The position numbers and the translations under genes are program-made. A DNA stretch of 35,568 nt from a virus: IMG/VR virus record IMGVR_UViG_3300026089_000018, positions 1 through 35,568 of that record, one strand, 5' to 3'. The notes beneath the pieces were generated by a model. It had not been told where the DNA came from, ran no database searches, and saw only the letters and a program-made list of their open reading frames with translations. This document shows positions 9,080 to 24,191 of the stretch, piece by piece. Every line of letters begins with the position of its first letter. Positions within the stretch are counted from its first letter, which is position 1.

Positions 9080-10797
9080 CAGGTTTTCCTCCCAGTCCGG
9101 GGATTTCCTCTAGGGGTCTTCGGCTTCGTCTGAGCCTGCGGCGACTGCTTCGTACGGCCGCCGCCAGCCGGGCGTCCACCTGCCGCACCCGACGTCTGAG
9201 GTGCGATCGGCTGCCCGTCAGGCCCCGCAGCAGAGAACGGCACATGCGTCTGGAAGATGTCGTCGAGACCCGAGTCCTCCTCGAACTCCCGACGCTGAGC
9301 CTCCGTGGCCTGGTCGAACCCGAAGTACTCCAGGACCGTCTCACGGGACAGTTCCTTCTGGGTCCGCAGGGCCATGATCTGCTGAACGACCGTTGAGTCC
9401 GCGTCGAGCTGCACGTTGCGAGGCGTGAACGTCAGGTTCGGTTCCGACTCGAACTTCCCCTCGTTCGCCGGGTGGTCGACCACAGCGCGGGCGATCTGGA
9501 TTTCCATGGCCCGCTTCATCATGTGGCGGCGGTTCTCCAGAAGCCTGGCGACGCCACGGGCGACCGTCAGAGTCGACTCGTTCCGCTGACCTGAGGTGGA
9601 GATCGTCAACGCGCCCATCACCCGGGACAGGATCCGACGGTCCAGGGTGTCGTACTTCTCGGAGTCGAGGACGTACGTCTGGTCTGGGGTGATGATCTCG
9701 ATGTTCAGCCGGTGGTCTCCGACGATCACAGGCAGCTTAGCGACGACCTTGAAGTTCTCCTGCAGGTTGTCCAGTTCCTCCTGGTCGGCAGGGTCGTCCT
9801 TGTCGCCCTTCTTGACCAGCAGAATGTAGTTGGCGGCTCCGACGAGGTTGACCCGGTCGGCCTCCAGAAGTTGCTGCTTCAGGTCCAGAAGCGGGAAGAC
9901 GGACCTGAGACGGTTCGCTGGGAACCGCTCGTAGGACATCTTGGTGCGGGTGTACCGGAACACGTTCCTGGAACTCAGGAAGATCAGCCGCTTTGGGTCG
10001 ATGTTCCACGACGCCAGGACCGCTTCCTCGTCCTTGGACAGGCCGGTGACCTTCCCGTCGAAGAACTCGCTCATCAGGTCGTCCATGTACTTGCCGTCGA
10101 GAGCAGCCGAGTAGGACGCGTACTCCGCGTCGGTGGCGTGCCAGGCGAGGCGATCCTGACCGAACGGGCCGGGCTGCAGCGGCACCACCTTCATCGGGTC
10201 GAGGAACGTCAGGGCGACCGGGCAGACGATGCTGTACTTCTTCCGCCGTCTCGGGCCCTGCTTCATCTTGGGCTTCTGCCCGGCAGGATTCGTGGGGTCA
10301 GCTACCGGGTCGGCTTCCTTGTCCTCAACGCGTGTTCGGCCCCGGACGGTGTACTCCTTGCGGCCCCACCAGACTCCGACGACGACCTGGGAGTACTTGA
10401 AGTCCTCCCGGTGCCACTGACGGGCGAACGTGTCCATGTCGAGGTCGCGGTTGATCTGGTTGAACACGTCGGCGGTGTCGGGGTCCTCGTCCTCCCATTT
10501 GATGCCCTGGAACATCAGGCCCTCGGTGACGTCGCAGACGCCTCCGACGACGTCGTCGTTCTCGACGGCCTTCCGGGAGACCCGCATCATCTTGTACGGG
10601 TTGTCGGGGGCGATGTACGCCTGACGGTCGAACAGGCTGGACCGCATCCGGCCCTGGGTGGTGGACACCCAGTTCGCGATCTCGCGGGCGACGTGGTTGA
10701 CGGAGGTCTCCAGGATGCCGGACTCGATGCCGGTGGCGTTGACCCATCCGACCTCGGGCTGCTCCGTGGTGCGAACGTTCGTTGACGTGACGGTCAT
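9079..10797 (-). CDS. Portal protein
   Basis: A 572-residue protein. The N-terminal section has APDNPYKMMRVSRKAVENDD, then a long alpha/beta core with VNQINRDLDMDTFARQWHRE-like helices, a stem/crown region around VNLVGAANYILLVKKGDK, and a Pro/Gly/Thr-rich basic tail (GGRPAGGGRTKQSPQAQTKP). Size, gene order (large terminase, small protein, portal, protease) and composition fit the dodecameric DNA-entry ring. The ribosome-binding site is GGAG. The disordered basic C-terminus is typical and probably faces scaffold or DNA. Confidence 0.8.
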   Translation of the reverse strand: MTVTSTNVRTTEQPEVGWVNATGIESGILETSVNHVAREIANWVSTTQGRMRSSLFDRQAYIAPDNPYKMMRVSRKAVENDDVVGGVCDVTEGLMFQGIKWEDEDPDTADVFNQINRDLDMDTFARQWHREDFKYSQVVVGVWWGRKEYTVRGRTRVEDKEADPVADPTNPAGQKPKMKQGPRRRKKYSIVCPVALTFLDPMKVVPLQPGPFGQDRLAWHATDAEYASYSAALDGKYMDDLMSEFFDGKVTGLSKDEEAVLASWNIDPKRLIFLSSRNVFRYTRTKMSYERFPANRLRSVFPLLDLKQQLLEADRVNLVGAANYILLVKKGDKDDPADQEELDNLQENFKVVAKLPVIVGDHRLNIEIITPDQTYVLDSEKYDTLDRRILSRVMGALTISTSGQRNESTLTVARGVARLLENRRHMMKRAMEIQIARAVVDHPANEGKFESEPNLTFTPRNVQLDADSTVVQQIMALRTQKELSRETVLEYFGFDQATEAQRREFEEDSGLDDIFQTHVPFSAAGPDGQPIAPQTSGAAGGRPAGGGRTKQSPQAQTKPKTPRGNPRTGRKT

Positions 10798-10807
10798 TTC
10801 GCAGCTC

Positions 10808-11197
10808 CTACTTCAACAGTTCGAGGTCTTGGCGCATCACTTCGACGAGGCGGGATGCGATACGGAATTGGCGGTCGCACTCCGTCAGGAGCCTTTCGAC
10901 CTGTTGTGTGCGGATGCGGGTGTACTGCCTGTCCTGTGACTCGACGCGGTGGAGCAGCACAGCCAACTCGGTCAGGCGAGCCGAGAACGCCGCGATCTCC
11001 CTCATCGCCTGGTCAGGCTGCTTCCCGTAGAACGCACGGATCGCCACCGCGACCACATCCAGTTCCGCTTCGATCTCAGCCCTGGTGCCGAGGTAGTTCG
11101 GCTTCGACAGCATCGACACCGGATCCATCACGAACACGGTGTGGTGGCCGGTCGCGGCAGGCGCATGGAAGTCTTCAGTCATCTCCGTCTGCGGCAT
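10808..11197 (-). CDS. Helical protein between terminase and portal
   Basis: A 129-residue protein starting MPQTEMTEDFHAPAATGHH. From about residue 38 onward it is one extended helical, coiled-coil-like region (RAEIEAELDVVAVAIRAFYG ... RTQQVERLLTECDRQFRIAS). The start at 11197 is placed 8 nt after a CCGAAG block; upstream in-frame starts would run back into the terminase gene. No family is recognised. Its position suggests a role in packaging or portal assembly. Confidence 0.6.
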   Translation of the reverse strand: MPQTEMTEDFHAPAATGHHTVFVMDPVSMLSKPNYLGTRAEIEAELDVVAVAIRAFYGKQPDQAMREIAAFSARLTELAVLLHRVESQDRQYTRIRTQQVERLLTECDRQFRIASRLVEVMRQDLELLK

Positions 11198-11211
11198 ACC
11201 TGGTACTTCGG
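11195..11211 (-). promoter_or_regulatory. CCGAAG start-associated element (copy at 11197)
   Basis: The minus strand reads CCGAAGTACCAGGTATG. It lies about 27 nt after the terminase stop and has no ribosome-binding site. A tandem 10-bp repeat lies immediately upstream. Confidence 0.55.
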
Positions 11212-11215
11212 CATT

Positions 11216-11235
11216 CGATCGGGTTCGATCGGGTT
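11216..11235. repeat. Tandem 10-bp direct repeat
   Basis: CGATCGGGTT occurs twice head to tail (11216-11225 and 11226-11235), each unit holding the palindrome CGATCG. It lies 5 to 24 bp upstream of the CCGAAG hexamer of the 11197 gene, where a -35 element or activator site would be. Confidence 0.6.
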
Positions 11236-11238
11236 CGT

Positions 11239-12909
11239 TCAGACCCCGAACCGGTCCAGCCTGGGGGCGGACTTCCGGATCATGTTCAGCGCCGCCTCGA
11301 TGTTCTGCAGGTTCCGGCCAGCGATCATCATGCGCGCAGCATCGAGCGTGTGGTAACTGCCGTTCCCGTACTTGCGGGACTTGTGTCCGGCCGCCGACCC
11401 CTCGTCGCGGACGTACTGGATCTCCTCGCCCTGCCACTCCGTCAGCAGTTCACGGTCGTAGGGGAGTTCCATACGGCCGGTGTCGACCATCTTCCGCAGT
11501 TCGTCGGAGGCGAAGTCGATGATGTTCTTCTCGATGACCGCATCCTCAGGCTTCTCCTTGCCCTTCAGGGCACGGTCGTCGAACTCGACGGCCACCTTGT
11601 TGGAGAACCCGTAGCCACGGATGCGTTGGGCGATGTGCTGCGGGGTGCGGCGCAAGTGAACGGACGTTCCCACCGCCAACGGGTCCAGCTCCTGCCACAG
11701 CGGCAGGCCGTTGCCGGTCTTGTCGAGGGCGAAGCATCGGAGACGTTCCCCGTAGAACGCGAAGACGTGCTTGACGGCCTCCGCCTGGTCCGCTGCACCA
11801 ATCCTCATCAGGTGGATGCGGGCCAACAGTCGGAGCACAGACTCGGCCTTCGCCTTCGGGTCAGCCAGTTCGCCGTAGACGAGGATCTCCGACGGGTCAC
11901 GGGTGTACCCAACGTCCATGCCAGCCCAGAACGACGTGTACTGCTTGTCGAGGTGGGTGCCCGGCAGGGTGACCAGCGACTCGATGTTCAGGCCCTGCCC
12001 CAGCAGGTCGTCGTTGATCTTGATTTTGGAGTACACGTCGTCGTTGTACTCGGTCGCCCACGGAGACTCGTTCATCCTGACGCACGCCATCAGCCGGTGC
12101 AGAACGAACAGAGGGTTCGCTGCGTCGCCGTGGTCGCCGTAGATGTTGCGTCGGTAGTCGACGTTGTCCGCTGACCCGCCGTAAATGGCGATCTTGTTGC
12201 GGCGCTCCATGTCTGACCACGTGGGGCGATGCATCGCCATGAACCTGTGCACCGTGAACGGAATGTCCGGGTCCTCCCCGACGGTGTACTCGTAGTACTT
12301 GTCGCGGATACCGTTCGACACCCCATGGCAACGCCACTGAGCGCCCGTTGACGCCGCCTTCATGGTCTCCACCAGCTCGATCCAGCCGTTCCTGGGGAAG
12401 TCCTGCATCTCGTCGGCCTCGATGACCAGCGGGTGCATCCCCTTCACGCCCTTCCCGTCACGCTGAGGGAGACGGGAGATGATCCTGGAGTTGTTCGCGA
12501 AGTGGACCTGGAACTGCGGCTGGTGGTTGATTCCGTTCCCTCGCTGCCGGGGCAGCATCTCCCTGGACAGCCGGTGGGAGAGGATCAGGTGCTCCACCTT
12601 GTCGGTGACGGGCCGGAGGTGGTTCAGCTCTGGTGCGGTAATGAGCATCTCGGAGCCTGGGAAGTTGAACGGGAACGCGTACGCCCTCATCTGGATGCCG
12701 ATGGACTTCCCCAACGACCGTCCGGCGTGGTCGATCTGGTAGGTGTCCTCGCACCGGTACCAGGCCCACTGGAAGTCCCACAGCCGGAAACAGTCGTCCT
12801 CGTTCTCCTCGTCGATCCACGAGAACTCGGCCAGTTCGATCCCTGACGGGTCATCCAAGATCGCCGCCAAATACATATCTTCTATATCAAGCTGTGCTAT
12901 AGCGGACAT
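11239..12909 (-). CDS. Terminase large subunit
   Basis: A 556-residue DNA-packaging motor. The ATPase domain has the Walker A-like GRSLGKS (63-69) and Walker B LVIEADE (161-167). The nuclease domain has acidic residues in AGMDVGYTRDP, in LDKTGNG, and in HTLDAARM near the C-terminus. The start at 12909 (MSAIAQLDIEDM) overlaps the HNH gene stop as TGATG, with GGAAGGTGAT upstream inside the HNH gene as ribosome-binding site. Its first 12 residues recur at the N-terminus of the HNH protein, and its first codons (ATA, CTT, GAT, ATA, TTG) are unusually AT-rich for this genome, so the 5' end looks rebuilt. Confidence 0.93.
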   Translation of the reverse strand: MSAIAQLDIEDMYLAAILDDPSGIELAEFSWIDEENEDDCFRLWDFQWAWYRCEDTYQIDHAGRSLGKSIGIQMRAYAFPFNFPGSEMLITAPELNHLRPVTDKVEHLILSHRLSREMLPRQRGNGINHQPQFQVHFANNSRIISRLPQRDGKGVKGMHPLVIEADEMQDFPRNGWIELVETMKAASTGAQWRCHGVSNGIRDKYYEYTVGEDPDIPFTVHRFMAMHRPTWSDMERRNKIAIYGGSADNVDYRRNIYGDHGDAANPLFVLHRLMACVRMNESPWATEYNDDVYSKIKINDDLLGQGLNIESLVTLPGTHLDKQYTSFWAGMDVGYTRDPSEILVYGELADPKAKAESVLRLLARIHLMRIGAADQAEAVKHVFAFYGERLRCFALDKTGNGLPLWQELDPLAVGTSVHLRRTPQHIAQRIRGYGFSNKVAVEFDDRALKGKEKPEDAVIEKNIIDFASDELRKMVDTGRMELPYDRELLTEWQGEEIQYVRDEGSAAGHKSRKYGNGSYHTLDAARMMIAGRNLQNIEAALNMIRKSAPRLDRFGV

Positions 12910-13343
12910 CAGGCCATCACCTTCCTTCGCGTGTGACCCGTCGTACGACGCGCCCGACGGGTGTTCTCGGCCCGAGTGACCACTTCCATGTGGGCGACAT
13001 TGACACAGGCCCGGTTGAAACAGAGATGGTCGATGGTCAGGCCAGCAGGAATTGGCCCATTCACGGCTTCCCAGGCACGCCGATGGGCGTACCCAACGTT
13101 CCCCTTGCCATCGGCCTGCCTGCCGTAGCCATTTTTGGCGATTGAGCCCTGCCAAACCAAACAGCCGTTCGCATCCGGCACGGGCGATGGCACCGGCTTG
13201 AACCGAACCTTCCCTGCTCGATACTGCCGCTGCCACTCGCTCTTACACCGACGACACCAGGTGTTTCTCCTACCGACCCCGCGAGGCTCACAGCCACAGC
13301 GCGAACACATGTCTTCTTCGTCGAGTTGGGCGATAGCACTCAT
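12909..13343 (-). CDS. HNH homing endonuclease with terminase-derived N-terminus
   Basis: A 144-residue protein. Residues 13-33 hold a Cys4-type zinc site (CSRC ... WCRRC). The HNH core covers about 55-125, with GYAHRRAWE (His87), TIDHLCFNRACVNVAHME (Asp105, His106, Cys108, Cys113, Asn115, His118) and a basic tail RRARRTTGHTRRK. It should nick or cut DNA and promote its own spread. Residues 1-12, MSAIAQLDEEDM, match the large terminase start in 11 of 12 positions, but the codons differ. Its stop overlaps the terminase ATG, and its 3' end supplies the terminase ribosome-binding site. This strongly suggests insertion into the 5' end of the terminase gene. Confidence 0.88.
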   Translation of the reverse strand: MSAIAQLDEEDMCSRCGCEPRGVGRRNTWCRRCKSEWQRQYRAGKVRFKPVPSPVPDANGCLVWQGSIAKNGYGRQADGKGNVGYAHRRAWEAVNGPIPAGLTIDHLCFNRACVNVAHMEVVTRAENTRRARRTTGHTRRKVMA

Positions 13344-13354
13344 AAACGAAGTAT

Positions 13355-13394
13355 GACCCCGGGAGTCGGCTCGTGCAGACCGACCCTCGGGGTC
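13355..13394. terminator. Long hairpin upstream of HNH gene
   Basis: A 15-bp stem with one mismatch and one G-U pair joins 13355-13369 with 13380-13394 over a 10-nt loop. On the minus strand it follows the 13432-13725 gene and precedes the HNH start by 12 nt. It may end the upstream operon or insulate the packaging genes; TTCGTTT after it is only weakly T-rich. Confidence 0.55.
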
Positions 13395-13431
13395 ACGGGG
13401 AATCCCTGCATTCCCGCGAACAGCGTAGACG

Positions 13432-13725
13432 CTATTCGCCGACCTGTCCCTCGATGAGCCTCAACAGCTTCGTCGTACGCTCCGTCTCAGCCTCAGCGCG
13501 GGCCACCTTGTCCTCACACACCATGAGCTGATGCCTCAGGTCGGCGATGATCTCGTCCCTAGCAGCGATGGCGTCCTCGCGTGCGATGAGAGCCTCCTCA
13601 TGAGTGTCGGACTCACGTTCCTCGTCGTCGCGGCGGGCAGTGAGCAAAGCGACCGTGATGACACCACCGGTGGTAACGACCGTTGACACCACGCCGACTA
13701 TCGCCACCTGCACCGACGGGTCCAT
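13432..13725 (-). CDS. Single-TM coiled-coil membrane protein
   Basis: A 97-residue protein starting MDPSVQVAIVGVVSTVV, with one hydrophobic segment (about 6-28) and then a long charged coiled coil (RRDDEERESDTHEEALIARE to the end). Its ATG overlaps the stop of the 4-TM gene before it (TGATG at 13725), so the two membrane proteins are probably made together. The one-TM plus coil design is seen in some phage holin accessory or Rz-like proteins; this is only a possibility. Confidence 0.6.
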   Translation of the reverse strand: MDPSVQVAIVGVVSTVVTTGGVITVALLTARRDDEERESDTHEEALIAREDAIAARDEIIADLRHQLMVCEDKVARAEAETERTTKLLRLIEGQVGE

Positions 13726-14108
13726 CAGACAACCGCCTGAGGGGCTTTCTTCTGCCTACGTGCCATCAGCTCCTGGAAGACCAGACGCCGCAGAACGTAG
13801 GCGTCGATCAGCGCGTACCCGCCGTAGGCGACCATCGCCGTAGAACCAGCGTTGTCGAACTTCACCACGGCGACACCGAACAGGGCGGCGGCGCACAGCA
13901 TCCACGCCATCGCGATCCACGTCGCACCGATCAGGAGCCACCTCTGGTTACCGAGCAGCATCATCAGACCTGCGAGCAACGTCCACACCCCCCACGGCCA
14001 CACCTGGCCGTCGAACCACTGCAGCAGCGGTTCGTATGTAGGCGGTGGGAACCGGTCGTCCCCACCAGCAACGATCGCCACACCGAGACAAACATGCACA
14101 AGCCCCAT
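13725..14108 (-). CDS. Four-TM membrane protein (holin-like)
   Basis: A 127-residue protein starting MGLVHVCLGVAIVAGGDD. It has hydrophobic segments at about 3-15, 38-52, 57-80 and 90-108, and a basic C-terminus RRQKKAPQAVV. The ATG at 14108 has no good ribosome-binding site, and a CCGAAG block lies 17 nt upstream. Together with the next gene it could form a lysis or superinfection-exclusion pair. An alternative GTG at about 14144 would add 12 residues. Confidence 0.5.
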   Translation of the reverse strand: MGLVHVCLGVAIVAGGDDRFPPPTYEPLLQWFDGQVWPWGVWTLLAGLMMLLGNQRWLLIGATWIAMAWMLCAAALFGVAVVKFDNAGSTAMVAYGGYALIDAYVLRRLVFQELMARRQKKAPQAVV

Positions 14109-14125
14109 GAGACGTCGTGTAGTTA

Positions 14126-14131
14126 CTTCGG
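14126..14131 (-). promoter_or_regulatory. CCGAAG block upstream of membrane gene pair
   Basis: The minus strand reads CCGAAGTAACTACACG. Unlike other copies, the base 8 nt downstream is not the first base of a start codon, and the ATG is 17 nt away. If the block is a -10 element, the transcript would have a leader of about 9 nt. Confidence 0.4.
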
Positions 14132-14200
14132 GGCTATCCACGCGCGAGCCTGACTTCCTGCTCCTGGTCCAGAAAATGATACGTCCCACCAGACTTCGAC

Positions 14201-14728
14201 CTACCTACCTGTCTCATGCGACGAGAATCGCTTCCATACCCCTATCGACAAGTGTGGCTGAGCCGCGAACGCATCATCGAGCAACGCCAAAATCCATAGA
14301 CGCCTCCACTCCACGAAGTACGACGGGTGAACCCGCAGAACCCGGGCAATCGCCTCGATCTGGTACATAGACCCTGCCGGGTCCCTGAGAGTCACCACAT
14401 CCCGCTCACCCCGGATAATCCTGGTGATCTGGGAGTGATGAAGTTTGAGCTGCTGCGCCAGCCACCGGACCGAACGTCCGTTGAGAAGCTCGTGTACTGC
14501 TGTCCCGAACGGCTCGTTGGTGTACTGGGCTGTCACCAACTGCTGCAGTTCCTCAACCGTCGGAACCCGGGACGGGTCCTCACCCTTCAGCACACACGCC
14601 GCATTGTGGAGGTCACCCAGGAGCCGGTACATCACATCCGGCCGTTCGGTGAGGAACCGTTGCCAGAACTCGTGGTCCGTGGTCTTGGGCATCATCTCGT
14701 GTTCGCGTGCCACGATCTCCCAGGACAT
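14201..14728 (-). CDS. HTH (XRE-like) DNA-binding protein
   Basis: A 175-residue protein starting MSWEIVAREHEMMPK. A helix-turn-helix lies at about 84-110 (RSVRWLAQQLKLHHSQITRI, then IRGERD), followed by MYQIEAIARVLRVHPSYFVEW, the usual last helix of Cro/CI-type domains. The N-terminal 75 residues are helical and may mediate dimerisation. GAGGAAG supports the start, 1 nt after the preceding gene. It may regulate phage transcription, or assist DNA recognition in packaging given its place beside the terminase genes. Confidence 0.75.
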   Translation of the reverse strand: MSWEIVAREHEMMPKTTDHEFWQRFLTERPDVMYRLLGDLHNAACVLKGEDPSRVPTVEELQQLVTAQYTNEPFGTAVHELLNGRSVRWLAQQLKLHHSQITRIIRGERDVVTLRDPAGSMYQIEAIARVLRVHPSYFVEWRRLWILALLDDAFAAQPHLSIGVWKRFSSHETGR

Positions 14729-14729
14729 A

Positions 14730-15392
14730 TCAGAGCTTCCTCAGGAAGAACTTCTGCTCATGCTCCCGGAAGTAGGCGTCGACCTCATCGAACTGCGGTT
14801 TCATGACCTCTAACACCCAGTCGATGACGTCTTCCGCCGACTCGAACCCCAGCTTCTTACGTTCTGACTCGTTCGCCCGCTTATACGCCCCGGCGACGTT
14901 GAACAGTTCCTTCGTCAACTCGATCGCCCGACCGAGCTGCTTCTCCCTCATCACCCCGAACGCCTTAGCGGCCGTCTTCAGGTTCGCCAGATACCCCTGG
15001 ACCGACTCGTGGGAGTTGTTGTCACGCTGCGCCTTCGTCAACCCCAGGTCGTTCTGCAACTGGGAGATCATCGGCGCGGACTCCTTCAGCGCCTTCTGCA
15101 GAGCAGACTCCTGCTGAGCGGTCAAGAAGTCCAGGTTGTAGTCCACACCGGCAGCCAACTGCCACTGCCACCTGAACATCTGCACCTCCATCAGAAGGAG
15201 ACGCTCAAGGCCCCGCAGATCCGACGCTGCGGTGAACACGTTCTCAGCCAGATACCTGTCCCTGGCCTCGTTGTAGTACTTCTGTTCCTTCTCCGACTGA
15301 ACTTCCAGTTCATGACCAGTGACCGTAGTAACCGGCCACTGCTGCCTGATGACGGTGTTCACGGTAGGTGTGGACACTGATGGCGCACTCAA
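14730..15392 (-). CDS. Putative terminase small subunit
   Basis: A 220-residue, mainly helical protein. Recognisable features are KYYNEARDRYLAENVFTAAS, DLRGLERLLLMEVQMFRWQW, and a C-terminal helical part ending QKFFLRKL. A dense helical protein of this size two genes before the large terminase is likely the DNA-recognition subunit. The proposed start is TTG at 15392; an internal GTG at 15380 is possible, and neither has a strong ribosome-binding site. Confidence 0.55.
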   Translation of the reverse strand: MSAPSVSTPTVNTVIRQQWPVTTVTGHELEVQSEKEQKYYNEARDRYLAENVFTAASDLRGLERLLLMEVQMFRWQWQLAAGVDYNLDFLTAQQESALQKALKESAPMISQLQNDLGLTKAQRDNNSHESVQGYLANLKTAAKAFGVMREKQLGRAIELTKELFNVAGAYKRANESERKKLGFESAEDVIDWVLEVMKPQFDEVDAYFREHEQKFFLRKL

Positions 15393-15417
15393 TTCTGGGC
15401 TGTGACACCAAGGGTAA

Positions 15418-15780
15418 CTACAACGATGTCGTTTTGGCGCTAGGTTGGCGCCGTTTATACCGAACCGGGGGGCGTTCGACCCGCACCCGACCCAAGGCTT
15501 TCAACTCCCGTTGAACACGGTCCGGGAAGTCCGACGGCTTCCACACATCCGCATCCAGGCCAGCCGAACGCATCGCATCCAGCCAGTACTTCTGCATCGG
15601 GGTGACCCGGCCGCTCTCGACCTTCAACTCCCGGAACATCACCCCACGGGCTCCGACAATGGTCAGATCCGGGTAACCAGGCTCACTACGATCCGAACGG
15701 TACGTGTGATAACAGGCCAAACCGTAGAAGAAGCACAGCTTCCGGACCTTGCTGAGGAACTCAGCTTCCGACTCGGCCAC
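15418..15780 (-). CDS. VRR-NUC-type nuclease
   Basis: A protein of about 120 residues starting VAESEAEFLSKVRKLCFF. It has the PD-(D/E)XK signature of the VRR-NUC family: Glu in ESEAEF, PGYPDLTIVGARG with the catalytic Asp, and MFRELKVESGRVTPMQKYWL with E-x-K and the Q-x-x-W-L helix. Such nucleases act on branched or replicating DNA. The start is uncertain: GTG at 15780, overlapping the preceding gene by 20 nt, keeps the whole fold. The C-terminus is basic (RYKRRQPSAKTTSL). Confidence 0.75.
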   Translation of the reverse strand: MAESEAEFLSKVRKLCFFYGLACYHTYRSDRSEPGYPDLTIVGARGVMFRELKVESGRVTPMQKYWLDAMRSAGLDADVWKPSDFPDRVQRELKALGRVRVERPPVRYKRRQPSAKTTSL

Positions 15781-16810: not shown

Positions 16811-17512
16811 GTGACCGACGAGGAACTGTCTCAACTGTGGGCCTGGTACAGCGACGACCACGCCCCCGAGGCGCTGGAGATGCTGGTCGCCCACTACGAG
16901 CCGCTCGCCCGGTACCTCACCCGCCGTGCCCTCGCCAAGGCCCCGCCGCATCAGGACAAGGAAGACCTCCTGTCCTACGCCCACCACGGGCTGCTCGATG
17001 CGATCAGGAAGTTCGACCCCGAACGAGGGTTCAAGTTCGAGACCTACGCGTCACGGCGGATCACCGGGTCCATCATCGACGGGCTCCGGTCGCAGGACCC
17101 GCTGTCGAGGCCCGTCCGTAAACGGGTGTCCGCGCTCCGCGACGCGCAACTGAGGCACTGGGAGCAGGTAGGCAGGTCCCCGACGGTGGAGGAGCTGGCC
17201 GCCGACATCGGCGAGTCCGTCGACGCCGTGAGGGAACTCCTCGTCCACCAGCAGACCCTCACCAAGGAACTCGACCAGACCGTAGCCGAGTCCCATTACA
17301 CCGACGGAGACGCTGAGGCAGTCCTCGAAGAAGAAGGGCTCGTGCACGGGCTGGCGAACCTGCTGCCCCGCCTGTCAGAGCGTGACCGGGTATTCGTGGT
17401 CCTCTACTACGTGGACAAGATGTCGCTGCGGGACACCGGGAAAGTGCTCGGCATCTCAGACTCCCGCTGCGCCCAGATACGGCGTGAAGCGTTGCAGTCG
17501 TTGCTGTCCTAG
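16811..17512 (+). CDS. FliA/WhiG-type RNA polymerase sigma factor
   Basis: A 233-residue protein from GTG 16811. Region 2 (about 25-100) contains DKEDLLSYAHHGLLDAIRKF, then FKFETYASRRITGSIIDGLR and PLSRPVRKR, the core-binding and -10 recognition segments in the form typical of sigma-28/WhiG. Region 3 (104-150) has GRSPTVEELAADIGESVDAV. Region 4 (184-233) has LPRLSERDRVFVVLYY and the -35-binding helix LRDTGKVLGISDSRCAQIRR. It should redirect host RNA polymerase to phage promoters. It is the only gene of its block on the plus strand, and its stop shares CTAG with the convergent tail gene. No anti-sigma gene is evident beside it. Confidence 0.9.
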   Translation: MTDEELSQLWAWYSDDHAPEALEMLVAHYEPLARYLTRRALAKAPPHQDKEDLLSYAHHGLLDAIRKFDPERGFKFETYASRRITGSIIDGLRSQDPLSRPVRKRVSALRDAQLRHWEQVGRSPTVEELAADIGESVDAVRELLVHQQTLTKELDQTVAESHYTDGDAEAVLEEEGLVHGLANLLPRLSERDRVFVVLYYVDKMSLRDTGKVLGISDSRCAQIRREALQSLLS

Positions 17513-17879: not shown

Positions 17880-20800
17880 CTAGACCCCAGCGCGGCTAAT
17901 GGGAACCCAGCCGACCCCAGGCACCTTCACCAGCACCGGACGGTTGTTCACTGTGTTGATTCCGATGATGACCCGTTGACCGTTCGCGGTCAGCACCGAC
18001 AACTGCACAAACGCTGCGGCAGGGAACAGCATCCTGACGGGGGCAGTGCTGAGGACACTTGTCACGGTCAGCGTGGCCGCTGCAATCCTCGTGGGAAGCC
18101 CAGCGGGGTCCAGGGTGGAGGTGGCGGTCATCGCCACGGTGGCGAGGACGACCCGTTCCCCGACCGGGGTGAGTGTTGCTGTGGTGGTGAGGGTGACGGT
18201 GGAGGGCTGGATCGCCCCGCCGCCCGCCTGCAGGGTGGAAGCAGTGGTCAGGGCTGCTGCGACGACTGCCGTCCTGGTCGCGGTAGCAGTCAGTGTCGAC
18301 GTGGTGGTGAGGTCAACGGTTCCGACGCCGACACCGAACCGGATCGCGGTCGCAGACAGTGTGGACGTAGTGATGAGCCCTGCGGCGACCGGTCGGATCC
18401 GTTCACCCGTGGCGGTGAGGGTGGAAGACGCATTAAGAGCTGCAGCGGACTGGGGGGCGCGAACGGCCGTTGCCGTCAGGGTCGCCGACGCACTGAGTGC
18501 ACCGGTAGACAACTGGGTGCGGACTGCGGTGGCGGTCAGGGTGGACTGGGTGGCGAGAGTGGCGGCGACGAGGCCGATCCCGATGACGGTCCCGGTAGCG
18601 GTGAGTGTGGATGTGGCTGTGAGGGCCGCAGTGGCCTGCGGAACCCGGACCCCGGTGGCAGTGAGCGTGGACGCCGCTGTGAGGGTGGCGGACGCGACGG
18701 CGTCACGGGTGGCGGTAGCAGTCAGGGTGGACGCTGTAGTGAGGTTGGCGGCTGACAGTGGGATACGGACAGCAGTCGCGGTCAGAGTGGAGACTGCAGC
18801 CAGATCGGCGGCGGCCTCCTTCACCCGTACAGCGGTTGCTGTGAGTGTGGACGTGGCCGCGAGGGTGGCTTCTACGACACCGACCCCGGTACGGATTGCG
18901 GTAGCAGTGAGCGTGGAGACGCTGGGCAACGCAGCAGTGGCGAAGGTGGTGACAACCCCAGCGGCCGTCAGGGTTGACGTGGTGGTCAGGTCGCGGCTGA
19001 CGATCCGGAGCCGCTCTGCGGTAGCGGTCAAAGTGGAGACGGTAGTCAGGTCGACGGTAGGCGTGACAACTCGGAGCGCAGTGGCAACGAGTGTTGACGT
19101 CGAGACCAGCGACACAGCGGACTGCGGCTCCCGCACGGCGGTAGCAGTCAGCGTGGACGCGCCGGTCAGGGCAGTGGTAGCGGGCTGGGTGCGTACCCCG
19201 GCGACCGTCAACGTGGAGGCAGTGACGAGGTTGGCTGCGACGAGACCGACGCCGATGGAGATACCGGTGGCGGTCAGTGTCGACGCTGTGGTGAGCGCGG
19301 CAGTGGCCTGGTTGGTCTGGATTCCAGCCGCAACCAGAGTGGACGTGGCAGTCAGAGCTGCAGTGGCCTGCGGCTCCCGAACCCCGGTCGCGGTCAGTGT
19401 CGATGTGGTGGCGAGGGCGGCCGTCGTGGTGTGGGTCTGCTGTGGCGTAGCGGTGAGTGAAGATGAGGCCGTCAGGGAGACGGCAGCGATGGGCTCCCTG
19501 ACGGCTGCTGAGGTGAGGCTGCTCGTGGCAACCAGGTTCGCGGCGGAGGCACCGACCCCGCTGACGGCCGCAGCCAGTGTCGATGACGCGACTAAAGCGG
19601 CCAGCACAGTGGCGTCGCGAACGCCCGTTGCCGTCAAGACCGCTGTAGAGCTCAAGGCCGCTGTGGTGGTCTGTTCGCGTACGGCGATGGCGGTGAACAT
19701 GGAGACGCCGGTGAGGTCGGCTGCCGCCTGCGGGACCCTGATCCCCGTCGTGGTGAGCGTGGATGCGACGGTCAGGGCTGCCGACGTGACGGCGTCACGT
19801 TCCGCCGTGGCGGTGAGGGTGGACTGGCCGACGAGGGTGGCTGCCCCGGGGAGGACCGCGAACGCGACACCGGTTGCTGTGAGTGTTGAAGTGGCGGTAA
19901 GAGCTGCGGCTACAGTCGCGACGCGAACGGCCGTTGCCGTCAATGTGGTTGCGGCTGTCAGGGTCCCAGCAGCCTGCGGTTCCCTGACTCCGGTGGTGGT
20001 CAGTGTCGACGTCGCCGTGAGTGCTGCGGACGCGGGTACGACGCCGATGGTGGTGCCGGTGGCTGTGAGGGTGGAGACGGCTGCCATCGCGGCGGTGGAG
20101 ACTGCGTCACGGACGGTGGTGGCTGTGAGTGTGGATGTGGTGAGGAGCGCGGCTGCGCCGAGGGGCACATGGAACGCTGTCGCGGTGGCCGTCAGAGTAG
20201 TTGTGCTCGTGAGGGCGGTTGTGGCGAACTCGGTGATGACCCCGGTCGCAGTCAGGGTGGATGCGGCGGCGAGGTTGGCTGCTGCTACCTGGTCACGTAT
20301 CGGGGTGGTGGCGAGGGTACCGGTGGCGGTGAGAGCGGCTGTGGCGAACTCAGTGGCGACAGCGGTAGCCGTCAGTGTGGATGCCGCCGTGAGGGCTGCT
20401 GTGGCGTTCTGGGTGCGTACCGCTGTGGCGGTGAGGGTGGACGCCGTGAGGAGGGACACGGCGGCTGCTGGTGCCCTGACGGCTGTAGCGGTGAGCGTCG
20501 ACGCAGCGGTGAGGGCTGCTGCCGCGCCCTGGACGCGTACCGCTGTGGCGGTCAGGGTGGATGTAGCTGTGAGTCCCGCTGCGGACTGCGGTTCCCGAAC
20601 GGCTGTTGCCGTCAACGTCGATGCGGCCGTCAGGGCGGCTGTCGCGTCGTGAGTGAGCGGCCCGGAAGTGACGTCGCCGGTAGCCGTCAGTGTTGATGTG
20701 GCCGTAAGGGCTGCTGTGGCGTCATGGGTGGTAGGCCCTGTGCCGATGTCACCGGTAGCCGTCAGCGTCGAAGTTGCTGTCAGGTTGGCCCCGGCGTATG

Positions 20801-23800
20801 CGGTGATGGTGGCACCCGCAGGCGAAATTGCCCTCGCCCTGCTCGCATGTGCAGTACCAAGCCACTGGTACTCCCACGTCGCCGTATCAGTGGTGTCACC
20901 GTCGAAGTAAGTCTCAGCCCGGTTACCGATCTGCTCAACAATCACACTGTCGATTCCGACGGCCTGCGACGTGGCATTGTTCGTGGCGAACGTGAATTGA
21001 AGTCTGTCGGAATCAGTCCCACCAGGGAGGCCCAAATATGCGGCTCCCGGAGGGGGAACGTACTGGACCAGCGACGTCCACGAGTTAGCAAAGAAACTGC
21101 CGATTGTGTCGAACGTAGTCACCGTGTGACGTTCCATCGGCCCGGTATCAGTTGTACCGTCCGCCGCGTAAGTAGTCGGCACAACCGGGTCAACCTTCAC
21201 GGTCGGTGTTGCTGGACCGACCACTCTGTTGCGGAAGTGGTACGCCCGACCCTGCTTGACCGGAATAGCTCCGTACGTTGTGTCACGGACGAACGAACCA
21301 GTCGCTCCGGTCGCCTCGTAAGCGTAAGTCCCTACAGGGACAGCGCCATTCGTCAACGTCGATGTACGCGTGCCACCAGTCCAACCGGTTGAGCCTGTCT
21401 CGAACGACGGGTTCTCGATCAAATTGGTGCGAACGTACGGCGACGTGTGTGTAGCACCAACCTTGATCTGCATGACGCCACGCGAAGCGGCACCGCTAGA
21501 CGTTTGAGCGAGGGTTGTGGCAGGAGACGTCTGATTCCCAGAAACCACCATCGCCTGTGTGGCCCACGTAGTCAGGTTGTTACCGGTAGTCGTATTGGTG
21601 CCGTTGAAATAGACAACTTCCGACATCGCGCAACCAGGAACAATAAGATCGTGGCTCGAAACCGACGCCGTGTTGTTGCTCTCGCCGCCAACCGAAATAA
21701 TCATCTCGCCAGGGGCGGCATCGAGACTCTCATCGACGGTTGCGGAGAAACTCGACCCAGCAGCCGACGCTCCGAAAGCAACCTCAGGGTACTGCCATAT
21801 AGCGTTCGAGTCGTTCTTGCGGTATACGCCAGCGAACGTTGCCGTAACACCACCCGTGACCACCGGGATGCTTGGTGCGGCGCTCTCCCCGACGTTCTGC
21901 TGCCTGCACCATGCCGTCAATCTGACTGGGCCAGTACCTTCGCCGTCGGCGTCGGAACCTATAGCCATAGACCCGATCAGCACCCACCCGACGTCAGGAG
22001 GAAACGGAATCGAACTAGCCGGACGAGTCGTCATCCATAGCACTGTCAAGTCGCCAGCCTGAACGTCACCGGCTGCCGTCAAAGTGGTGCCAGTCGCAGA
22101 CGACGGTGTCGCCGGTGGCGACGGAGAAGAAACGTGGTACACGAACGGGCTAGGGACGGCGTTGAAATCCGCCGCAAGGACAGCGAGTACGGTTCCACCG
22201 TTCTCAGTCCGGCTGTGGTCCCACACCTGATGGCCGTCAACCGTGGGAACCTTCCACTGCATCCCCGCAGTGATCGACGTACTCGATGTGCCCGTGTTGG
22301 CGTTCGCGGTGTAAACAGACGACCATGCACCGCCAGTGCCGTTGCTGTACGTCGACGGGACCACATTCGACTCGAAGTCGGTACACCCAATGACCAGGTC
22401 GCCAGCCAGCGTTGGTTGCCCGAACGTATCGAACCCCGAAATAGGGTTCGTGGTCGAAACGCCGCGCGGGTTGTTTCGGAGCACCACCGAACAACCGGTG
22501 AACTCCGACAACAACAACACCTTGGAAGCACGCGACGAATCTATAGTCGCGGTCACTGCCGTAGACGACGGCCAATTAACGGTGGTCTTGATCGCCCACA
22601 ACTCGCCACGGGACCAACCATTAGCCGTCGAAGAACCGGCGTCGTGGGTGATGATTCTGCGCCACGTCGCCGTCTCTCCACCGGGCTTGCTGATCGAAGA
22701 AACAAGAGGGAATTGGAAACCGCCGTTGTCGCCTGCGTAGTACGCCACCAACACGTTCCCGGCATCGACCTGCGCCGCCGTGGTCGCAGCGACAGTTGTG
22801 CCAGATACGGTCGACGTTCCTGCCGTGTGGTCTCTCACCCACCGCGCAGACGAAGGTATCAAGGTGCCCGCAGCCGTCAACGTCGACGTGGCCGTCAGAG
22901 CGGCTGTGCCCTGCCTAGTAACTGGCGCGATCGTGATGTTGACGGTCGGTGTCACAGTGGTCGCGTCAAGATTCACGCCGTTACGGCGGACCCGGAACTT
23001 CAACACATCACTGTTGACGAAGTCGGCCTGTTTCAGCGTCAACGCGTACAACAGCTCAGTATGGCCGGACGCGGTCCAACCTTCGTTGTCGACCAGACCG
23101 TCCTCAGACACAGAACCTGCGCCGAACGTGCCCGTGCCGCCAGTAAGCCGACTGGTGGTCGCCCCTCCGTCGGTCAGGTTCGCGGAGGCGTATCCGGAAA
23201 CAGTGGAGGTGCCTGTGCCTACATCGACCCACGTGCCGCTGCTGTTCTTCTCCCACTGGAGCTGGAAGTCGTCAGTGGCCGGGACTGTGCCGCCTGCTGT
23301 TTCCTGTAGCCGGACACGGAGTGCGAGGTTCTCATCAGCAGACGAAAGGTCAACGGTTGGTGCCGTGTCCTGAGCCGCCAATGCGGTAGCCCCGGTTTCC
23401 GTCCCATCCGCATAGAACCGGTACGCGGCCTGGGTGACAGCCGGTTGAATGAGTGCCCGAGCGCGAACGATCGCCCCAGGCCCATATGTCGTTGTTGTCG
23501 TGCCTGTGACACCAGCGGAGTATGTGAGAGTTCCTGCCAACTGCTGCGAGGACACGGTCGGCATCGCAGTAGACACACGCCCACCGATGTCGTTGCCGGT
23601 CGTGGATGCTGGTGCGACCCTCTGGGAGATGGTGCCCAGCGTGATCGTGCCGCCACCCTGTGCCGTGACCGTCGCCAACTGCCACGTCGGGGCTGTGCCC
23701 TGTGCCATAACGATTGCGAAGATGAGACCGTCGCCGGTCTTGACAAAGTCCGTAGCAACAGACGATGTCACAAACGTGAACGGGGTGGCCGCCGTCGTGT

Positions 23801-24191
23801 CTACGCCGCCCGTGATCGCCCAGTCAATCGTCTCCGTGGTAGCGCATTCCCAACGCTCCGTATACCCCCACGCCATGTTCGCTGAGCCAGTGAGAGTGAA
23901 CGTCACAGAACCCGAGTTGGTCGCAGTCGTCTGGTCATCACGCACAAAAACGGAAACCTCAGACGGACCAGTACCGCCACCAGGGACACCGCCACCGCCA
24001 GAGAACGTCCCCAACAATGTCCAACCGGAGGGTGTGGTGATCGCAGCCGTGTCAGGGCGCAGGCCGATGTATGTGATGTAACCGTACTTGCGGGATGCTG
24101 TCGGCGTTCCGGTCGGATACGCGACGGCTACGGATGACGGGTTCTGGGATGTGATGACCTGAGCGCCACCGGAACCCCATACGAGTGCCAT
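17880..24191 (-). CDS. Giant repetitive tail-fibre/adhesin-like protein
   Basis: A 2103-residue protein. The N-terminal half holds three related beta-rich modules starting near residues 1, 460 and 700 (for example TTPSGWTLLGTF and DVGWVLIGSM), then a carbohydrate-binding-like region near 930-1110 with NLIENPSFETGSTGW. From about 1130 to 2070 there are about 46 tandem imperfect repeats of 20, sometimes 22, residues with consensus AALTAxSTLTATAVR. Alternating small/hydrophobic and Thr/Ser residues suggest a beta-solenoid or fibre shaft. The C-terminus GVGWVPISRAGV ends it. It is probably a surface-exposed tail appendage that binds host glycans. The start ATG follows the upstream stop as TAGCCGATG. 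Confidence 0.8.
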   Translation of the reverse strand: MALVWGSGGAQVITSQNPSSVAVAYPTGTPTASRKYGYITYIGLRPDTAAITTPSGWTLLGTFSGGGGVPGGGTGPSEVSVFVRDDQTTATNSGSVTFTLTGSANMAWGYTERWECATTETIDWAITGGVDTTAATPFTFVTSSVATDFVKTGDGLIFAIVMAQGTAPTWQLATVTAQGGGTITLGTISQRVAPASTTGNDIGGRVSTAMPTVSSQQLAGTLTYSAGVTGTTTTTYGPGAIVRARALIQPAVTQAAYRFYADGTETGATALAAQDTAPTVDLSSADENLALRVRLQETAGGTVPATDDFQLQWEKNSSGTWVDVGTGTSTVSGYASANLTDGGATTSRLTGGTGTFGAGSVSEDGLVDNEGWTASGHTELLYALTLKQADFVNSDVLKFRVRRNGVNLDATTVTPTVNITIAPVTRQGTAALTATSTLTAAGTLIPSSARWVRDHTAGTSTVSGTTVAATTAAQVDAGNVLVAYYAGDNGGFQFPLVSSISKPGGETATWRRIITHDAGSSTANGWSRGELWAIKTTVNWPSSTAVTATIDSSRASKVLLLSEFTGCSVVLRNNPRGVSTTNPISGFDTFGQPTLAGDLVIGCTDFESNVVPSTYSNGTGGAWSSVYTANANTGTSSTSITAGMQWKVPTVDGHQVWDHSRTENGGTVLAVLAADFNAVPSPFVYHVSSPSPPATPSSATGTTLTAAGDVQAGDLTVLWMTTRPASSIPFPPDVGWVLIGSMAIGSDADGEGTGPVRLTAWCRQQNVGESAAPSIPVVTGGVTATFAGVYRKNDSNAIWQYPEVAFGASAAGSSFSATVDESLDAAPGEMIISVGGESNNTASVSSHDLIVPGCAMSEVVYFNGTNTTTGNNLTTWATQAMVVSGNQTSPATTLAQTSSGAASRGVMQIKVGATHTSPYVRTNLIENPSFETGSTGWTGGTRTSTLTNGAVPVGTYAYEATGATGSFVRDTTYGAIPVKQGRAYHFRNRVVGPATPTVKVDPVVPTTYAADGTTDTGPMERHTVTTFDTIGSFFANSWTSLVQYVPPPGAAYLGLPGGTDSDRLQFTFATNNATSQAVGIDSVIVEQIGNRAETYFDGDTTDTATWEYQWLGTAHASRARAISPAGATITAYAGANLTATSTLTATGDIGTGPTTHDATAALTATSTLTATGDVTSGPLTHDATAALTAASTLTATAVREPQSAAGLTATSTLTATAVRVQGAAAALTAASTLTATAVRAPAAAVSLLTASTLTATAVRTQNATAALTAASTLTATAVATEFATAALTATGTLATTPIRDQVAAANLAAASTLTATGVITEFATTALTSTTTLTATATAFHVPLGAAALLTTSTLTATTVRDAVSTAAMAAVSTLTATGTTIGVVPASAALTATSTLTTTGVREPQAAGTLTAATTLTATAVRVATVAAALTATSTLTATGVAFAVLPGAATLVGQSTLTATAERDAVTSAALTVASTLTTTGIRVPQAAADLTGVSMFTAIAVREQTTTAALSSTAVLTATGVRDATVLAALVASSTLAAAVSGVGASAANLVATSSLTSAAVREPIAAVSLTASSSLTATPQQTHTTTAALATTSTLTATGVREPQATAALTATSTLVAAGIQTNQATAALTTASTLTATGISIGVGLVAANLVTASTLTVAGVRTQPATTALTGASTLTATAVREPQSAVSLVSTSTLVATALRVVTPTVDLTTVSTLTATAERLRIVSRDLTTTSTLTAAGVVTTFATAALPSVSTLTATAIRTGVGVVEATLAATSTLTATAVRVKEAAADLAAVSTLTATAVRIPLSAANLTTASTLTATATRDAVASATLTAASTLTATGVRVPQATAALTATSTLTATGTVIGIGLVAATLATQSTLTATAVRTQLSTGALSASATLTATAVRAPQSAAALNASSTLTATGERIRPVAAGLITTSTLSATAIRFGVGVGTVDLTTTSTLTATATRTAVVAAALTTASTLQAGGGAIQPSTVTLTTTATLTPVGERVVLATVAMTATSTLDPAGLPTRIAAATLTVTSVLSTAPVRMLFPAAAFVQLSVLTANGQRVIIGINTVNNRPVLVKVPGVGWVPISRAGV
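17965..20795. repeat. About 46 tandem 60-bp coding repeats
   Basis: Imperfect repeats of 60 bp (some 66 bp) encode the AALTAxSTLTATAVR units. Adjacent units differ at many positions and recurrent variants such as REPQ recur at distant units, suggesting duplication and shuffling by recombination. The repetition leaves long open frames on the opposite strand. Confidence 0.9.

Follow-up and report, generated by a model that had tools for sequence, protein, structure and literature searches.

Which of two nearly identical gene starts belongs to a phage terminase, and how did an endonuclease gene come to wear the other one? This question is raised by the uncultured phage represented by IMG/VR record IMGVR_UViG_3300026089_000018, a single metagenomic contig of which a stretch of 35,568 bases (the window) was analyzed. 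Here, an HNH endonuclease gene sits immediately in front of the gene for the terminase large subunit and opens with almost the same 12 residues as the terminase itself.

An HNH gene that opens with the start of its neighbor

The first 12 residues of the HNH protein are MSAIAQLDEEDM, and those of the large terminase are MSAIAQLDIEDM, with 11 of 12 residues identical. On the DNA level, the HNH copy (13343-13308; ATGAGTGCTATCGCCCAACTCGACGAAGAAGACATG, also written ATGAGTGCTATCGCCCAACTCGACGAAGAAGACATGTA) and the terminase copy (12909-12874; ATGTCCGCTATAGCACAGCTTGATATAGAAGATATG, with the AT-rich start ATGTCCGCTATAGCACAG) share 25 of 36 nt. Nine of the 11 differences are synonymous, distributed over seven codons (2, 4, 5, 6, 7, 8, and 11), while the remaining two fall in codon 9, which reads GAA (Glu) in the HNH copy and ATA (Ile) in the terminase copy. 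An earlier note on this DNA had described precisely this pattern, including codon 9 as the sole residue change, and it can be read directly from the sequence. The resemblance is far beyond chance; no other of the window's 869 start-codon ORFs (at least 80 aa) matches the HNH start at more than 4 of 11 residues.

The two genes are tightly interlocked (Table 1). The HNH stop codon TGA overlaps the terminase ATG as TGATG, and the two starts are offset by 434 nt (2 mod 3), which places them in different frames. As the earlier note had proposed, the 3′ end of the HNH gene, judged by its sequence, both restores the terminase frame and supplies a Shine-Dalgarno-like element. The HNH start is not preceded by a clear Shine-Dalgarno sequence, and a strong hairpin lies 9 nt upstream of it; HNH initiation is possibly leaderless or structure-controlled.

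Table 1 Features of the HNH/terminase locus in the window
Feature	Position	Strand	Remarks
HNH endonuclease gene	12909..13343	-	ORF of 144 aa, stop included; PF13392 HNH_3; phrog_826
Terminase large subunit	11239..12909	-	556 aa; phrog_5909, identity to GX15bay TerL, HK97 TerL fold
Putatively captured, native-like terminase start (12 codons, HNH N-terminus)	13308..13343	-	Log-likelihood against 19 starts
HNH body	12909..13307	-	Zinc ribbon CxxC..CxxC from residue 13; HNH_3 domain at residues 85-129
Shine-Dalgarno-like AAGGAAGG	12920..12927	-	Within the final HNH codons, 10 nt upstream of the terminase ATG (sequence)
Putative replacement terminase start, codons 1-12	12874..12909	-	AT-rich, foreign composition
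Terminase nt 37-88, tract common to L030/L031	12822..12873	-	51/52 identity
Stable hairpin just upstream of the putatively captured start	13353..13396	-	96-nt region, MFE -40.8 kcal/mol, z=-2.2

The HNH protein matches PF13392 (HNH_3) with E=3.8e-16 and 58.9 bits (cut-off 24.8) and phrog_826 with E=4e-30. It retains the invariant residues H87, H106, C108, C113, and H118 as well as the nearly invariant D105 and N127, so that domain and core residues are those of an HNH homing endonuclease of the HNH_3 class. Fold matches to I-PpoI and I-HmuI are weak (E 0.04-0.08). The zinc motif CxxC..CxxC begins at residue 13, directly after the shared 12 residues. Because only 3-11 residues commonly precede the first Cys in related HNH proteins that have such a motif, the shared residues appear to replace an ordinary short HNH leader. 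In the structure model, residues 1-10 are predicted to be disordered (mean pLDDT 46).

The terminase has no match in Pfam, and we found no homologue in GTDB genomes. It gives a weak match to phrog_5909, a large terminase, and its sole INPHARED match is the annotated GX15bay TerL (39% identity). Its predicted fold matches HK97 TerL (6z6d, E=2.6e-9), and the best 12 PDB matches are all terminases; this assignment is drawn mainly from the better-predicted nuclease half, and we make no claim for the N-terminal half (pLDDT about 30-50).

Elsewhere in the window, two small genes on the minus strand (13432-13725 and 13725-14189) lie between an HTH gene and the HNH gene; neither gave a match in PHROG or in the fetched loci. 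A sigma-factor-like gene (16811-17512, plus strand; phrog_351, E=1.4e-30) is encoded opposite to the structural genes, and a 2103-residue protein (17880-24191, minus strand) carries many degenerate ALTATSTLTATAV-type repeats at its C-terminal end.

The HNH copy resembles a native start

To determine which copy is native, we compared both with 19 homologous terminase starts from IMG/VR. Under the site frequencies of these starts, the HNH copy has a log-likelihood of -26.6, inside the leave-one-out range of -18.9 to -34.1, whereas the terminase copy, at -43.2, falls outside the values of all relatives, a difference of 16.5 in favor of the HNH copy. All 19 relatives have Asp or Glu at position 9 and the HNH copy has Glu, whereas the terminase copy has Ile. 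Of the 20 start loci listed, 18 are nearer in DNA to the HNH copy; because this list includes duplicates and its rows are related, the figure is a tally and not a test.

The terminase start is also an outlier in its own genome. None of 20,000 simulated codings for this peptide had a codon usage as unusual. Its GC3 of 0.27 falls in the lowest 0.09% of windows and below the starts of all other 26 genes checked (0.36-0.91). ATA occurs only 15 times among the 8,147 codons of the genome, and two of these 15 are in the terminase start. Within terminase codons 2-15, TAT is used in 1/1 and GAT in 2/2 cases, with two ATA and one CTT; after nt 90 of the same gene, the counts are 0/20 for TAT, 2/39 for GAT, and zero for ATA and CTT. 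The codon contrast drawn in the earlier note thus holds for the AT-rich terminase copy, while its description of the HNH copy as GC-rich proved too strong: this copy is moderately GC-rich, with a GC content of 0.50 over the 36 nt and a codon usage P=0.017.

Because the HNH copy fits the relatives and the terminase start has a composition foreign to the genome around it, these sequence comparisons largely support the reading that the native-type start is now on the HNH gene and that the terminase carries a substitute, as the earlier note had assigned them. The comparison with relatives that the note had suggested thus came out largely in the predicted direction, although we infer the native start of this lineage from relatives that keep the terminase 5′ end at about 75% protein identity or less. 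Our searches returned no relative above ~75% terminase identity that keeps the 5′ end and none that shares the start without the HNH gene. A degenerate pattern of the 12-residue start yielded no further contig in IMG/VR, and the sole match to a looser pattern was the contig of L016.

A foreign-looking tract adjoins the putative replacement start

The anomaly does not end at codon 12. Terminase nt 37-88 are identical at 51 of 52 positions to two related contigs, L030 (3037-3088) and L031 (equivalent position), although the terminases are otherwise ~60% identical (59% on the protein level). Among 53 pairs with <66% overall identity, the next-best 52-nt window reaches 48/52. In a search of 2.9 million IMG/VR viral contigs, the 24-mer TATTTGGCGGCGATCTTGGATGAC from this tract occurred only in L030 and L031, at the same position of the gene. 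Both contigs diverge from the window again on either side of the tract, and shared regions elsewhere align at about 65-80%, with short pieces a little higher. The HNH gene is absent from both at this position.

The simplest reading of nt 37-88 is a short stretch of recombination right beside the HNH insertion, with transfer in either direction compatible with the sequences. The replacement start itself (nt 1-36) matches L030 at only 21/36 positions, and no donor for it was found in the IMG/VR start-pattern searches or the L030 comparison. Since the anomaly runs past codon 12 into the near-identical tract, the replacement start looks imported, possibly by co-conversion, rather than recoded in place. 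Of the carried-in, recoded start postulated in the earlier note, the replacement is retained, and the recoding appears less likely.

The terminase gene as a target of mobile elements

A PF13392 HNH gene adjoins TerL in none of 24 related contigs, some of which are fragments; the nearest HNH_3 matches, those of L032 and L027, lie upstream of the terminase start at a distance of roughly 1-2 kb. The usual gene order in relatives places the terminase after an HTH gene or short ORFs, and the upstream genes in the window (HTH, 14201-14728, and the gene at 14730-15392) are the usual upstream neighbors of this terminase family. The HNH gene at the terminase is thus optional and sporadic among relatives, and such sporadic presence at a site is a further property of HNH homing endonucleases.

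Intein-like in-frame insertions interrupt the related terminases of L027 (1768-4431), L032 (1477-4179), L030 (3001-5688), and L031, and terminase alignments are also interrupted in L010, L035, and L006. The insertions are located in the Walker A motif (L027), after GVKG, near residue 397, and near residue 520. Because inteins thus occupy several sites in related terminases, these alignments show the terminase gene to be an apparent homing target. The insertion in the L030 terminase begins after DK with Met, with no obvious Cys/Ser.

The insertion in the window itself fits neither an intron nor an intein. A cmscan of 10500-15500 found no group I or group II intron family at E up to 1, and the 434 nt are almost all coding. 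Group I splice logic, which calls for a 5′-exon T and a 3′-intron G at homologous sites of both copies, was satisfied at no position. An intein was rejected as well, since the HNH and terminase frames differ and a splicing domain is absent.

Two surveys covering ~135 related HNH loci revealed no second captured start. The only high scorer (L153) turned out to be an out-of-frame match from a tandem gene duplication, in which a 219-nt gene segment beside an HNH gene is duplicated (104-322 and 1061-1279) with 95% identity.

A proposed route of insertion and its alternatives

The duplication, the native-like and alien copies, the shared foreign-looking tract, the optional HNH gene, and the lack of an intron or intein signature are established directly. 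We consider it probable that they reflect a homing-type HNH gene that inserted at the terminase start, took the native start, and left a foreign replacement start through the element itself or through co-conversion; the cleavage, homing, and immunity steps of this route are ones that we infer. The HNH gene would have entered the terminase large-subunit gene 12 codons in, whereby the native first 12 codons, together with the upstream expression signals, would have become the start of the HNH gene. The terminase would then restart 434 bp downstream at a second start encoding nearly the same peptide and originating from a diverged phage lineage, on a foreign 5′ tract of about 36-88 nt carried with the element or acquired by co-conversion during break repair. 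Coupling through AAGGAAGG in the last HNH codons and through the stop/ATG overlap would keep the essential terminase expressed. If the HNH enzyme recognizes the native start region, the new allele would be protected, since the insertion splits the recognition site and the diverged substitute does not restore it, whereas an identical substitute would recreate it. The key question is whether the enzyme cuts the start that it wears itself and spares the start that it supplied.

Besides the lack of closer relatives that keep the 5′ end and of a donor for nt 1-36, several points weigh against homing. The case is one example in ~135 HNH loci, and the junction rests on one assembly, as the near-identical contig L002 (99.9% over 5.5 kb) stops 167 nt short of the terminase start. 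Furthermore, the cut sites of well-studied free-standing homing enzymes of the T4 type are hundreds to thousands of bp away from the enzyme's gene (PMC2988022).

The main rival, which we regard as rather unlikely, is ordinary phage mosaicism: an illegitimate crossover at a gene boundary would have joined the 5′ end of one terminase plus an HNH gene to a terminase from another phage with its start complete, leaving HNH as a passenger whose cutting is irrelevant. This would produce the same anatomy as homing; the foreign tract and the L030 match require recombination alone, and boundaries of genetic exchange are frequent locations of nuclease genes (PMC10448857). However, an in-frame capture that ends right before the zinc ribbon, with 11 of 12 residues matching and an intact stop/start overlap, is neat for one random crossover, and in relatives inteins have invaded this gene repeatedly. 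An assembly chimera of two related phages joined at the terminase start is a further alternative, as the locus is known from a single contig, with the independent contig L002 stopping at 12742. We nevertheless judge it very improbable, because both genes are intact and overlap by TGATG and the genes upstream are the usual neighbors of this terminase family.

It is also improbable, though less so than a chimera, that the start was duplicated in tandem with an HNH insertion and that the terminase copy then diverged synonymously in place, either because selection favored an initiation region downstream of HNH that is AT-rich and unstructured or because repeat-mediated deletion was avoided in this way. 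AT enrichment is frequent in start regions, divergence would make the repeats more stable, and the restriction of all non-synonymous change to codon 9 fits such a course. Yet the Ser change from AGT to TCC takes multiple steps, the GC3 lies below that of every other gene start checked, and the anomaly extends into nt 37-88 with their match to another phage. Least credible of all is a role of the HNH protein as a packaging cofactor of the terminase, similar to HK97 gp74, with the shared N-terminus as a functional interaction tag. HNH genes beside the terminase do act in packaging in HK97-like phages, and the same has been proposed in Skunavirus (PMC10448857, PMC12724721), but here the HNH_3 class of the protein, the absence of an HNH_3 gene beside TerL in the 24 related contigs, the predicted disorder of the N-terminal tag, and the lack of such a tag on any other surveyed HNH gene all speak against it.

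Beyond this locus, we tentatively raise the possibility of a class of phage homing elements that resupply the 5′ end of an essential gene, taking the native start, carrying a diverged start and a ribosome-binding site, and thereby becoming self-immune. They would be the N-terminal counterpart of mitochondrial C-terminal elements, with ShiLan-type inserts perhaps as the version internal to a gene. If true, a selfish nuclease would need no intron or intein to invade an essential gene at its front; it would take the start and leave a diverged spare in payment. Such a route would account for the persistence of free-standing homing genes within densely packed phage operons. It would also bring the unusual mitochondrial elements, the HNH inserts of actinophages, and the hot spots around packaging genes under one directly testable mechanism.

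Comparison with known systems

Nuclease genes are known to accumulate around the terminase, and some of them function in packaging (PMC10448857; PMC12724721). HK97 gp74 and Skunavirus HrdP resemble the HNH protein described here in adjoining the terminase; unlike those proteins, which are conserved in their phage groups, the HNH gene of the window is sporadic. Intronless homing by T4 seg/mob genes likewise involves free-standing phage endonuclease genes and co-conversion of flanks, but these enzymes cut at a distance, and the available part of the source describes no captured or resupplied gene end (PMC2988022). In the core creep of intron endonuclease ORFs (PMC10448965), an ORF is fused in frame to upstream host coding sequence and uses host expression signals, as we propose here; core creep needs an intron, whereas the insertion in the window lacks one.

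Another phage case is the HNH insert of the ShiLan domain in actinophage DNA methylases, which carries no intron or intein signature and whose first 11 residues resemble the 11 residues just downstream of the insert, more so in protein than in DNA (PMC11855218). Uninvaded genes are slightly closer to the insert copy than invaded ones, and the authors weighed the repeat as a possible sign of an intron (PMC11855218). In ShiLan gp65, we saw the hidden HNH frame in the sequence, while the flank duplication is taken as given by PMC11855218. Both systems thus combine a phage HNH insertion lacking these signatures with a duplicated flank. In contrast to our locus, the ShiLan insert lies inside a gene and is read through out of frame, with no gene start captured.

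We found no published N-terminal case of gene-end resupply in the papers searched from the non-subscription literature. Two candidates were rejected: the so-called N-terminal copies in Tremella are copies of the following exon, and in Phialocephala the whole atp9 region is duplicated with an insert. The nearest system is that of fungal mtDNA mORFs associated with foreign gene ends (Allomyces atp6; Glomus atp6, atp9, cox2, and nad3; PMC3630166). In the window as in mORFs, an endonuclease gene sits in an essential gene and a duplicated gene end flanks the ORF. In mORFs, the displaced native copy resembles close relatives in DNA (91-98%), while the active copy is foreign (64-81%) and encodes a similar peptide (PMC3630166). 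In the window, too, the displaced copy is native-like and the active copy foreign, a likeness limited by relatives of about 75% identity or less. Regarding the donor lineage of the active copy, nt 37-88 are shared with L030 and L031, and nt 1-36 are without a donor. The parallel to fungal mitochondrial elements drawn in the earlier note therefore extends to the duplicated end and the native-like displaced copy and stops at the C-terminus: mORFs resupply the C-terminus and encode LAGLIDADG or GIY-YIG enzymes, whereas the phage case concerns the N-terminus, an HNH enzyme, and overlapping genes. By this analogy, the phage locus can be viewed as the mirror image of an mORF at the N-terminus.
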